From a virus, in the IMG/VR virus record IMGVR_UViG_3300008450_000342, positions 1 through 28,400 of that record: a stretch of DNA of 28,400 nt, one strand, 5' to 3'. The position numbers and the translations under genes were made by a program. Shown here one piece after another: positions 19,421 through 23,335 of the stretch; position 1 is the stretch's first letter, and every line of letters starts with the position of its first letter. The notes under the pieces are model-generated. The model was not told the origin of the DNA and ran no database searches. It saw only the letters and a program-made list of their open reading frames with translations.

Positions 19421-20770
19421 TTAATATAGCCTAACGCCAGTGCCACGTCCAGCTCCTGCATGGAGCGGGTTGAACTCACGCCAGATGACGTAGCCAAGTG
19501 CATCGTTCATGTGATCGTAACCGGCATCCTTGTCTGGATCGCCTTTCTCGTTGTAGCTCTGCAGTTCTAAGCACTCGATCACCTTGCGGCAGCTAGCGGA
19601 AATGGTCAGCCTGACTTGACCTTTGCCATTTTCCAGCAAAGCTTGAACAGCAGCCACCCGATCACGAACGGCAGGGTTGCTGCGTGGTGATTGGTTGCTG
19701 AAGCCGTAGGACTCCAGGATCTGAATGTCGGTCTGACTTGCGTTGGTACTGCGATTGCCGCCGCTGGCGTCCGGGTAGACGTACACCTGCCGCTGTGGGT
19801 AGCGCCGTTCGATTTCTTGTGCCAATGCGTCGGTGTCATGCGCGCCACTGATTTCATCAATGACTAGCAGGCTGTTGCCCTGCCTGATAGCGATGACTGC
19901 CGACATGTTGCCAACGTTAAAGTCAACGCCAACTCTGAGCGGTTCGCGGCTGGTATCTGGTAGGTCGGTTGTGATGTGTTTGCTGCGATCAAAGCGGTCG
20001 TATACCTGACCAGTGGTGAGGTTGACAAACTCGCCGTCGAGGTATGCACGCAGCAACTGCGGGTCGTAGTTGGCTTGCAGTCGTTCGATAAAGTCCGGCG
20101 GCAAGTGCGGGTTGTCAGCAGTGCGCATTTTGATGAGCTTGCGGTCAGTGCGCTGCTGGGCGTCATCACTGCCGAAGGTATTCCACATCCAGCGAAAGCC
20201 TTCAGGCGTGCTGGCCGCGGCAAACTGCCTGACATTGCCTGCGCGCAAGCGGCCAAGGATTTTTGGAAATGCCTTGTTGGCAATGTTTGGTGTCACCGTG
20301 TCAATCTCGTCGGCCAACACCCAAGCAAGGTTCAAGCCAATAATGCGTGACCAATTTTCAAACGAACGGCAGAGAATCTTGGTGTCACCGCCTGGCAAGT
20401 GCAACATGTATTCCGGCAGTGGTGATGCACGGAAGGTGTACGGAATGTCGTATGCCTCAAGGAAATCATCAAAATCGTTTTGCCAGATATCACGGATCAA
20501 TGGGCCAGTGGGCTCCATTACGGCACCAATGAAGCCTTGGTTGGCTGCTGCAAGCATTACTGCCTTGGCGCATAAAGCGCGTGTTTTGCCAGCGCCGTAG
20601 CCAGCCGAGATGCCAATGATCTGCGTCGCAGTGTCATCGACAAATGCAAGCTGGCCAGGATGCAGGTCGCCTTGGATGCGAGCGATCAATTGTTCTACAT
20701 CTACAGCGTCGCCATGCTGTCCAAGCTGCTGCAGGACGTGGCCTTCACGGGTTGCCGTGAGGATGCTCAT
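19421..20770 (-). CDS. Terminase large subunit, 449 aa
   Basis: Packaging motor ATPase and nuclease. I choose ATG at 20770, overlapping the small-subunit stop as ATGA; the frame is open 32 codons further but that part is the small-subunit gene read in another phase. Motifs: Walker A AGYGAGKT (about 56-63), Walker B LAWVLADE (148-155), coupling motif ASTPEG (186-191). Nuclease acidic residues are at V-G-V-D-F-N (D283), Y-P-D-A-S-G-G (D334) and H-M-N-D-A (D423), the RNase H-like triad. All key residues are present, so the enzyme looks active. Subtype (cos or headful) cannot be told from this window alone. Confidence 0.95.
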   Translation of the reverse strand: MSILTATREGHVLQQLGQHGDAVDVEQLIARIQGDLHPGQLAFVDDTATQIIGISAGYGAGKTRALCAKAVMLAAANQGFIGAVMEPTGPLIRDIWQNDFDDFLEAYDIPYTFRASPLPEYMLHLPGGDTKILCRSFENWSRIIGLNLAWVLADEIDTVTPNIANKAFPKILGRLRAGNVRQFAAASTPEGFRWMWNTFGSDDAQQRTDRKLIKMRTADNPHLPPDFIERLQANYDPQLLRAYLDGEFVNLTTGQVYDRFDRSKHITTDLPDTSREPLRVGVDFNVGNMSAVIAIRQGNSLLVIDEISGAHDTDALAQEIERRYPQRQVYVYPDASGGNRSTNASQTDIQILESYGFSNQSPRSNPAVRDRVAAVQALLENGKGQVRLTISASCRKVIECLELQSYNEKGDPDKDAGYDHMNDALGYVIWREFNPLHAGAGRGTGVRLY

Positions 20771-21090
20771 GAGCAAAGCTGTGCCAGTTTGGCTGCGGTA
20801 TTGATGGCGCCAAGGGCAATGTGATACTGCCCAGCACGGCGAGCTTCCATCTGCAAAGTGCTGCACTGCGACAGCAGATCAGCCACCATTTGCGGGCGTT
20901 CGATGTCCCAGTCAGCCTTGAGCTGCTCACGAGCCATGGCCAAGTAGCGACCACAAGCAGCTTCACCTACCCCCCAGTTTTCGCTCGCATAGCGGATGCA
21001 ATCGGATCTGCGGCCACCGTTAGCGATAATGCGAGCAAACCGTTGTGCGCGCTGTTCAGTTTCTGCTTTAGTCGTACCTTTAGCCGCCAT
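20767..21090 (-). CDS. Terminase small subunit, 107 aa
   Basis: DNA-recognition subunit, directly before the large subunit with ATGA overlap. The N-terminal part (AQRFARIIANGGRRSDCIRYASENWGVGEAACGRYLAMAREQLKADW) has the helix-turn-helix pattern of small terminases, where 'R-x-D-x-I-R-Y-A-x-E-x-W-G' forms the recognition unit. The C-terminal half (MVADLLSQCSTLQMEARRAGQYHIALGAINTAAKLAQL) is the oligomerisation helix pair. It starts 50 nt after the glycosyltransferase gene; I could not define a convincing promoter in that gap, though it is AT-rich. Confidence 0.85.
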   Translation of the reverse strand: MAAKGTTKAETEQRAQRFARIIANGGRRSDCIRYASENWGVGEAACGRYLAMAREQLKADWDIERPQMVADLLSQCSTLQMEARRAGQYHIALGAINTAAKLAQLCS

Positions 21091-21140: not shown

Positions 21141-22001
21141 TTAGGATCTGCGATATTTTTCATGGAGAATTTTCGGGCAGACCTTATTCCAATCATGAGT
21201 GTGGTGAAGCCGTGGATTTGCATGACCCATGAGTTCAATCCATGTTGATGATGGCGAGATCATAACGGTGTAGAAAGATTTGACGTAGGTGCCATTTTCC
21301 TTGTAGGCCTCGGTGATGCCGCCTGCATTTTGCTGAGTAACAGCTTGCGTTAACTGTATTGGGCAATAGGTGAAAAACAGGCTGCCGGTGGCCCCATGAG
21401 CGATATATGTATTGACGTCATCGTTGAATTTACCAATGAATTTGAATGGTCGTTGGCTATCGCAAAAGAATGAGTTCATCGTTTTGCGAAGAACACGGCG
21501 AGCATTTTCCGAATTGGTGTTGTAGTCGCCTCCTTGCGAGAAGGCAATGCTTGACACTGACGGTGTTTTTTCCAGCAATTCGACCATGCCATCAAAAACG
21601 ATATCAAGACTTTTTGCTTTAAAGTTTGAATACCTTGGCTGCTGACCTACTTCCTTTCTGCCTATTCGGCGATATGAAAACCAACTGTAGTCATCATCAA
21701 GCTGGCAGAAGAACCGGCATTTGACTTGCTTAGCAAGATCCCAACAAGCGTTGCGCGCCCATAGTGGTGTACGGCGATCTTTGGATGTATCGCATGAGTC
21801 AGTAATTTCAGCAACCTTGGCTTTTGAGAATACAAGAACACGGTCGCCATAGTTTTTCTTGTACTGCTGGCCAGTCGGATCTTCGTCATCAATAACGATG
21901 AACCATTTGCCGGTGTAACCAGAGCGCTGGAGTGTGTCGAGTGTTTTGATGTTGTCCGGTCTGCGGTTAGACAGGATGAAAATGCAAAAGTCGTTACGCA
22001 T
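21141..22001 (-). CDS. TAGT-like (TET-associated type) glycosyltransferase, 286 aa
   Basis: GT-A type glycosyltransferase pattern. The opening FILSNRRPDNIKTLDTLQRSGYTGKWFIVIDDED gives a Rossmann start with R14-P15 and acidic residues 38-41. RRTPLWARNACWDLA (76-90) and CQLDDDYSWF (99-108) hold the likely D-x-D metal/sugar site. FKFIGKFNDDVNTYIAHGATGSLFFT (186-211) and the C-terminal HHTHDWNKVCPKILHEKYR complete a pattern shared by phage proteins related to the TET/JBP-associated glycosyltransferases, which are thought to put sugars on modified DNA bases. All these motifs are intact. It overlaps the ParB-like gene by 8 nt. DNA as substrate is an inference; no base hydroxylase is in this window. 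Confidence 0.72.
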   Translation of the reverse strand: MRNDFCIFILSNRRPDNIKTLDTLQRSGYTGKWFIVIDDEDPTGQQYKKNYGDRVLVFSKAKVAEITDSCDTSKDRRTPLWARNACWDLAKQVKCRFFCQLDDDYSWFSYRRIGRKEVGQQPRYSNFKAKSLDIVFDGMVELLEKTPSVSSIAFSQGGDYNTNSENARRVLRKTMNSFFCDSQRPFKFIGKFNDDVNTYIAHGATGSLFFTYCPIQLTQAVTQQNAGGITEAYKENGTYVKSFYTVMISPSSTWIELMGHANPRLHHTHDWNKVCPKILHEKYRRS

Positions 22002-22797
22002 CGGGATGATCCTGCTTGAAGGATTGCTCTACGCGCTCGTCAAGGCGCACGAATCCATTTTCAATCGCTTGTTCAAAATCAATAATGACAAGGGCCGACT
22101 CTTCAAACAGCGACTGGATTTCCTTTGATGCGGTGGCGTAGTAGTCAGCGATTTTGCTGTATGTAAATGCCGTGTGCCGATAAGCTGCCGAGATCAGGAA
22201 ATCCTTGACGTCTTCTGAAATGTCAGCTGCTTCGATTTTGGCGATGAGCTGATTTGTTTTTGACGGATCGTAGAGATGCTCGGGCTTGTGCTGCGTGCCG
22301 CTTGGCTCGTAGATCGGCGCAGTGGTTTTGTTGGTGTATGGGCTGTCTTCGTCTATAGCGTCTTCGATGCCGAATAGCTCATCGAGTTCTTCCTTGTTGA
22401 ACCATGCGCTGATGTCATGCTCTTCACTGATCTGATGAAGCATCGCGCCATCCCATTCGCTGAGATCGCTGGTGCGGTTATCAGCCAGCGCCAGACCGAT
22501 TTTGTCATCTTCCGAGAGGTCGGTACGGCGCACGGCAATGATTTCACTACCATCGGTTTCGATGACACGAATGTTCTTGATGCCAGCTACCTTGGCACCT
22601 TCGATGGTGCCGTTGCCAGCAAGGATGCGATTGTCCTCGTCGATGACAATTGATCGTGCTGCACCGAAACGCTTGAGTGATTCGGCGATGAGCTTGCTGC
22701 TGCGATCAGTGCGGCGCCTTGCGTTTTTATGGTCGTGCTTGAGATCCTTTATTGATGCGATAGTGGCATCTGGCTGCACTTCGTCAAACGGAAGCAT
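21994..22797 (-). CDS. ParB/Srx-like protein with C-terminal helical domain, 267 aa
   Basis: ATG at 22797 gives an 8-nt gap to the upstream gene; a TTG 15 nt earlier is possible. Residues about 14-115 are a ParB-like domain: L-K-H-D-H-K-N-A-R-x-R, the box RILAGNGTIEGAKVAG (57-72) with the conserved G-N-G, and the closing LADNRTSDLSEWD. This is the type found with phage DNA methylases and modification genes, not chromosome partition. Residues about 150-267 form a second domain (YTNKTTAPIYEPSGTQHKPEHLYD... SALVIIDFEQAIENGFVRL) that I recall travelling with TAGT-like genes. The 8-nt overlap with the glycosyltransferase gene points to joint action. Confidence 0.75.
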   Translation of the reverse strand: MLPFDEVQPDATIASIKDLKHDHKNARRRTDRSSKLIAESLKRFGAARSIVIDEDNRILAGNGTIEGAKVAGIKNIRVIETDGSEIIAVRRTDLSEDDKIGLALADNRTSDLSEWDGAMLHQISEEHDISAWFNKEELDELFGIEDAIDEDSPYTNKTTAPIYEPSGTQHKPEHLYDPSKTNQLIAKIEAADISEDVKDFLISAAYRHTAFTYSKIADYYATASKEIQSLFEESALVIIDFEQAIENGFVRLDERVEQSFKQDHPDA

Positions 22798-22805
22798 TGA
22801 TTGGG

Positions 22806-23015
22806 CTAGCAATTGGGAAATCCGCCTTCAATGTACCCTATATGCTTTTCGGCGGCAATAACTGCGTCGTCGAGCGTTTTAGGTAAGCCGCAGGCAAGAA
22901 TTCGCATTGCGCTCCTGCCATCAGGCCACTGCACAAGGCACAGATGACGCTGAGGCTGGTCGTATAGGAACCGGTATTGACCGGCAGCTCCGCTTACTTC
23001 AAAGCGATGGTGCAT
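22806..23015 (-). CDS. Small unknown protein, 69 aa
   Basis: The ATG at 23015 is preferred, leaving 17 nt after the RHH gene; an upstream in-frame ATG at 23072 would overlap that gene by 40 nt. The protein is compact: RFEVSGAAGQYRFLYDQPQRHLCLVQWPDGRSAMRILACGLPKTLDDAVIAAEKHIGYI, strands then a helix, like small phage proteins of unknown role. No family recognised. Confidence 0.55.
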   Translation of the reverse strand: MHHRFEVSGAAGQYRFLYDQPQRHLCLVQWPDGRSAMRILACGLPKTLDDAVIAAEKHIGYIEGGFPNC

Positions 23016-23032: not shown

Positions 23033-23335
23033 CTAGCCGTTGTACAGCTTGCGCAGCGTTGCTGCAACGCACACCTCAGCCGTCGAGCGCCCGACAGCGC
23101 CGCCCAGGACGCGGTAGACGTGCTGGACCAGTGACAGATACTGATCAGGTGTCAGAGGCGCCTTGCTGGGGCTGCCAGCAGCCTCTGGTGACGTGTCTGC
23201 GTCATTGCCTGCCAGGGCAGCATTGCGTATGAACTCGGCACGAGACAGCCCGTACGCCTTGGCAGCGTTGTCAATTTTGCTGATGGACTCGTCGTCAAAA
23301 CGGATTTCGACTTTGCGATTGAAGGTGCGTGGCAT
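23033..23335 (-). CDS. Ribbon-helix-helix DNA-binding protein, 100 aa
   Basis: Residues 5-42 (FNRKVEIRFDDESISKIDNAAKAYGLSRAEFIRNAAL) show the RHH fold: a beta strand RKVEIRF for major-groove contact, helix, G-L-S-R turn and second helix with E-F-I-R-N. The pattern resembles CopG/MobC-like proteins. After a Pro/Ser-rich linker (about 45-62) a second helical part (DQYLSLVQHVYRVLGGAVGRSTAEVCVAATLRKLY) may mediate oligomers. It is TGATG-coupled to the upstream gene. It probably regulates this middle operon or helps replication initiation; target unknown. Confidence 0.75.
   Translation of the reverse strand: MPRTFNRKVEIRFDDESISKIDNAAKAYGLSRAEFIRNAALAGNDADTSPEAAGSPSKAPLTPDQYLSLVQHVYRVLGGAVGRSTAEVCVAATLRKLYNG

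Follow-up and report, generated by a model that had tools for sequence, protein, structure and literature searches.

To our knowledge, the characterized DNA glycosyltransferases act on hydroxylated bases or on sugars already on DNA, and Iyer et al. reportedly described TET/JBP-TAGT hypermodification systems of phages in 2013. The TAGT of phage T6 (T2/T6 beta-glucosyl-HMC-alpha-glucosyltransferase, gene ggt) glucosylates phage DNA (PMC13216743, PMC13390438), adding a second glucose to glucosyl-hmC. Solitary TAGTs, which occur without an alpha-GT or beta-GT, are present in 288 of 753 phage genomes and have been called potentially novel transferases whose function is yet to be defined (PMC13216743, 2026), in a paper that mentions neither ParB, nor a CT partner, nor terminase in connection with them. 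Here we analyze a TAGT that is probably one of these solitary enzymes, encoded on an entire 28.4-kb virus contig record (the window; the phage genome itself is possibly incomplete) next to a ParB-like protein with an additional C-terminal domain, which we call CT. Like the TET/JBP-TAGT systems, the locus places a TAGT glycosyltransferase within a phage modification locus; unlike them, it has a ParB-CT partner, and no Tet_JBP or C5 methyltransferase was found with it. We consider it probable that the pair is an autonomous, horizontally mobile, late DNA-glycosylation module of the phage.

Both genes lie on the minus strand, as the initial annotation had described them: the ParB-CT gene (22797-21994, 267 aa from its ATG; an upstream TTG at 22812 would add 5 aa) and the TAGT gene (22001-21141, 286 aa) share an 8-nt stop/start overlap, ATGCGTAA, at 21994-22001. 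Their reported position directly upstream of terminase is also correct, with a TerS-like gene of 107 aa (20767-21090, minus strand) immediately downstream of the pair, between it and the gene for the terminase large subunit, TerL (19421-20866, minus strand; Pfam Terminase_6N/6C), whose true start is probably near 20770. Sister phages conserve the TerS-like gene immediately before TerL, where it forms the fixed boundary of an exchangeable slot; in most of them 107 of 107 aa align at 81–90%. TerL is 81% identical to that of Synechococcus siphophage S-H1, 79% to that of KBS-S-2A and 74% to those of MED4-117/184, which places the window phage, a marine cyanophage, with the siphophages of this group; S-H1, KBS-S-2A, MED4-117 and MED4-184 are themselves absent from the 34 phage records that gave a TAGT match.

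The downstream protein had been read as a GT-A glycosyltransferase with intact acidic motifs, and the profile search and structure prediction proposed for it bear this out. It matches Pfam PF20691 at 107.6 bits (E=1.1e-30), above the gathering score of 27.5, as well as PHROG_842 (E=6e-67), and its AlphaFold model adopts a GT-A fold with Foldseek matches to K4CP, SpsA and GnT-I; the models of the TAGT and its partner are of medium confidence (pLDDT 73 and 74). Residues D102-D103-D104, K173, D195 and H266-H267 are invariant in the TAGT family members compared, and the acidic metal/nucleotide-sugar motif (D102-D103-D104 and D195) is retained without loss across 28 to 33 relatives. The T6 enzyme, which acts on phage DNA, likewise matches PF20691 (35.8 bits) and has a DDD motif and a GT-A fold (PMC13216743), but its gene lies beside that of dCMP hydroxymethylase and lacks an adjoining ParB-CT partner. 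Direct HMM comparison of the window TAGT clade with T6 TAGT gave no significant alignment, and the kinship runs through PF20691. A search of solved structures with the single sequences returned no match for the TAGT and only weak ones for the ParB-like protein.

The N-terminal part of the upstream protein (about residues 1–140; 22378-22797, minus strand) had been assigned as ParB-like, an assignment that a single-sequence Pfam search alone leaves without a match but that other comparisons uphold: this part matches the ParB-like PHROG_620 (3e-33), a profile built from its relatives matches solved ParB/Noc N-domains (E 4e-10), and its model matches ParB structures (Foldseek 7bnr, 7bnk), centered on the N-domain. 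Neither a ParA partner nor a central parS-binding HTH domain, as in ParABS partition systems, was seen among the annotated genes. At the position of the GERR-type CTP motif, the window head reads GNGTIEGA and has lost the Arg, and relatives such as that of locus L001 read GHGRVMAA; the missing Arg makes CTP-clamp behavior of the window head doubtful. We also considered that marine relatives might carry different N-terminal domains and rejected this, as these regions align as divergent ParB.

The extra C-terminal domain noted earlier on the ParB-like protein is real and conserved among relatives. CT (from about residue 145 to the stop; 21994-22365, minus strand) spans ~110 aa and consists of a linker of the form YT...PIYEP and a helical domain in which R207, H208, Y220, E232 and D240 are conserved. 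It lies beside a TAGT in all loci tested, being directly upstream in 87 of the 87 virus loci first collected for TAGT (L001-L087) and in 26/26 loci from bacterial genomes, whose titles include Veillonella, Pantoea, Desulfovibrio, Cloacimonadota, Dysgonomonas, Bacteroides, Gastranaerophilales, Clostridia, Acidimicrobiaceae, Falkowbacteria, Spirosoma and others. In the reverse search from CT, a TAGT accompanies 78 of 79 CT genes and begins within 120 nt of the CT gene end in 75 of 79; among the other four, the overlap at L324 is an ORF-calling artifact, L331 and L319 have inserted genes, and L284 is without a TAGT. The two genes overlap by 8 nt in 75 of the 87 loci measured. More than 100 loci share the arrangement, so chance does not account for it. 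Because CT stands beside TAGT with or without a ParB domain, which Vibrio jumbo phages and a small number of other members lack (L005, L301 and L308 are among the loci without it), the constant partner of TAGT is CT rather than ParB, and ParB targeting would not be essential everywhere. Judged by gene order, CT-TAGT is an obligate pair. Two variants of the TAGT side were also seen: an Erysipelotrichaceae genome has one ParB-CT gene followed by three tandem TAGT genes (L367:3358-6022), and the TAGT at L360:3449-4849 has an additional N-terminal region of ~185 aa without a Pfam match.

To place the pair among known hypermodification systems, we searched 42 pair-carrying records, many of them fragments but complete genomes included, with Tet_JBP, thymidylate synthase and C5 methyltransferase profiles. 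Tet_JBP was found in 0/42 (the oxygenase of MED4-184/117, serving as a control, was detected), no C5 methyltransferase was found in these records, and a thymidylate-synthase/dCMP hydroxymethylase homolog occurred in only one of them, a 191-kb Vibrio jumbo phage. An N6/N4-methyltransferase as a constant partner of the pair was rejected as well, being present in 8/42 records. Viruses that carry the pair without being related to one another infect cyanobacteria, E. coli, Lactobacillus, Nocardia, Porphyromonas and haloarchaea. In an all-against-all comparison of seven unrelated viruses (the window, an E. coli Rac-type element, Lactobacillus c5 and jlb1, halovirus HHTV-2, Nocardia NTR1 and a Porphyromonas virus), exactly two genes, ParB-CT and TAGT, were common to all and no other gene was common to more than three, the comparison covering two records less 1.7–2.6 kb at one end and a window that is possibly incomplete. 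The TET/JBP hypermodification reading of the initial annotation thus found no support in the 42 records. It had also offered two branches, a hydroxylating enzyme elsewhere in the genome or another substrate; the first we set aside, with three profiles essentially negative, and the second becomes the likelier one, since these records yielded no hydroxylase and the pair alone is common to the seven viruses. The lack of a recognized hydroxylating enzyme in the 42 records likewise favors the autonomous late DNA-glycosylation module. Alternatively, the TAGT might act in a classical hypermodification pathway, on a base hydroxylated by an unrecognized enzyme (a divergent oxygenase, a hydroxylase or one supplied by the host), and CT or ParB might contribute to that chemistry. 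This would agree with the hydroxyl acceptor that known DNA glycosyltransferases need (for T6 TAGT, PMC13216743), with the dCMP hydroxymethylase gene adjoining T6 TAGT and with the Tet_JBP-like oxygenase in one sister slot (MED4-184/117), but we judge it unlikely, given that the marker enzymes are missing (bar ThyA in one jumbo phage), that no third gene is common to the seven viruses, and that the pair moves alone among viruses of bacteria and archaea.

The strongest support for a DNA target comes, at the level of gene neighborhoods, from the same slot in sister phages, where the same ParB head is found with other DNA modifiers. Most often TerS is immediately preceded by a gene for a ParB_N–N6/N4-methyltransferase fusion, whose ParB N-domain is homologous to that of the window (72–80% identity) and which occupies the same slot upstream of terminase, but whose effector is a fused SAM-dependent methyltransferase, whereas the window has CT and a separate glycosyltransferase. 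In Mom-type slots, Mom (PF25680, E=8e-52) follows the same head (75–79% identity); Mom modifies N6 of adenine (PMC7824862) and differs from the window enzyme in being a GNAT-type acyl transferase, not a glycosyltransferase. The TerS and TerL genes flanking MTase- and Mom-type slots are 80–90% identical to those of the window in most examples. In C5-type slots, a ParB head with a Cys-rich tail precedes a C5 methyltransferase (PF00145, E=2e-46). A DNA-modifying effector is present in 105 of the 105 sister loci having both a ParB head and TerS (80 N6/N4-methyltransferase fusions, a further 2 that also have a PALP-like enzyme, 2 C5 methyltransferases, 10 Mom and 11 TAGT; with identical heads removed, 51 methyltransferase, 8 Mom, 8 TAGT and 2 C5), counts that take TerL and ParB of the window itself as their anchors, and so describe the window lineage, and that include some repeated contigs. 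In a tree of the N-domains, methyltransferase and Mom heads are intermingled, forcing at least three changes of effector, and TAGT heads form one clade. The window fits this pattern, with a homologous ParB head followed by a modifier, which would act on DNA, before TerS-TerL. The methyltransferases and Mom on the same head in the same slot thereby lend strong support to the family, the pairing, the DNA-modification theme and the timing before packaging that the initial annotation had put forward.

These neighborhoods also bear on two further explanations. The sugar might go instead to a small molecule or to a protein, be it terminase, capsid or host factor, with ParB-CT as a DNA- or terminase-bound adaptor. 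The pair does adjoin terminase, and the E. coli TAGT members carry the PGAP label 'GREB1-related protein'; GREB1 has been reported to be a protein glycosyltransferase. We nevertheless regard such a target as very unlikely, as the slot combines this ParB head with DNA methyltransferases or Mom in sister phages and the neighboring terminases are too diverse for one conserved substrate. The database label 'partition protein' and the location before terminase could instead point to a partition or packaging factor with a degenerate or moonlighting glycosyltransferase. This is scarcely credible in view of the acidic and other glycosyltransferase residues, invariant in 28–33 relatives, and we set partition aside because most of these ParB heads form part of methyltransferase fusions and CT-TAGT survives without ParB.

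From this context we infer that DNA is the acceptor of the TAGT. In the DNA-glycosylation module that we favor, CT would dock the TAGT, the ParB head would, at a late stage of infection, bind or position this complex on the DNA of the phage, and the TAGT would move a sugar from a nucleotide-sugar onto DNA bases; glycosylation would then shield the phage DNA against host nucleases ahead of packaging. The acceptor base, the sugar and targeting by ParB are presumptive elements of this scheme. Since ordinary bases are the substrates of the N6/N4-methyltransferases, C5 methyltransferases and Mom on the ParB head, the most economical assumption is that TAGT-CT, too, would use a base without prior modification. 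We tentatively entertain the possibility that TAGT and CT glycosylate an ordinary, unhydroxylated base of phage DNA, for example at an exocyclic amine, and that the ParB head serves as a universal adaptor bringing interchangeable modifiers to this DNA before it is packaged. If true, this would be direct glycosylation of DNA with no prior hydroxylation step; should the pair work without a hydroxylase, it would represent either a new DNA chemistry or a pointer to an unknown hydroxylation route. The portion of the literature covered did not describe the CT partner, the exchange in the slot or the autonomy of the pair, and Iyer et al. (2013) may contain parts of them. For solitary TAGTs resembling that of the window, these results supply ParB-CT as a partner, the position before terminase as a genomic address, and a strong case from context for a DNA target. 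The slot as a whole suggests a single ParB head that phages combine with swappable chemistries, namely methylation, acylation by Mom, glycosylation and perhaps oxidation.

The slot varies further among sister phages. In MED4-184/117 it holds a ParB gene, an FkbM methyltransferase and a Tet_JBP-like oxygenase (L095:7896-8681, L096:7896-8681) with a weak match (E=3e-6) below the curated cut-off, and this set is possibly another ParB-headed modification module. The oxygenase gene is annotated in databases as a queuine tRNA-ribosyltransferase, and its neighbor annotated as a DNA methylase is a ParB_N protein, with the FkbM methyltransferase lying between the two. A PALP-like gene adjoins the ParB-methyltransferase before TerS at L142:6068-6769 and L210:2541-3239, and this pyridoxal-phosphate enzyme may supply an amino-acid-derived modification. 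Some sister phages, of the S-H1 type, have no ParB gene in the slot and only a sliding-clamp homolog upstream; such a DNA polymerase III beta-clamp homolog also lies just upstream of the slot at L093:18187-19236 and in many sister loci (for example L098:109-1170). Streptococcus, Terrisporobacter and Acidithiobacillus phages also have ParB-methyltransferase fusions within their terminase region or close to it. Streptococcus phage SpGS-1 (L339:3998-5819) has, upstream of terminase, a ParB_N-DUF4417 fusion (E=2e-70) followed by a 248-aa protein, and DUF4417 may be a further DNA-modifying effector.

Genes of donor type accompany some of these loci. A fusion of a His phosphatase and a cytidylyltransferase lies between CT and TAGT at L331:2560-5156, and a CofD-like gene and a MobA-like NTP transferase lie between them at L319:2646-6013; these insertions suggest unusual nucleotide-linked donors and hint that the TAGT donor may vary. 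A SAM-synthetase-like gene adjoins the ParB-methyltransferase in Streptococcus Javan117 and the Terrisporobacter phage, a parallel that fits modules bringing their own activated donor.

In the ynaK region of the Rac prophage, at least 80% of the ParB-CT/TAGT stretch is present in 885 of 5,426 complete E. coli genomes, and K-12-type strains such as C600 retain only a remnant of about 254 nt of the ParB gene, which makes E. coli suitable for direct testing. Shortly upstream of the pair, the window also encodes a small ribbon-helix-helix protein (23033-23335, minus strand), a possible regulator that is found in some sister phages as well.
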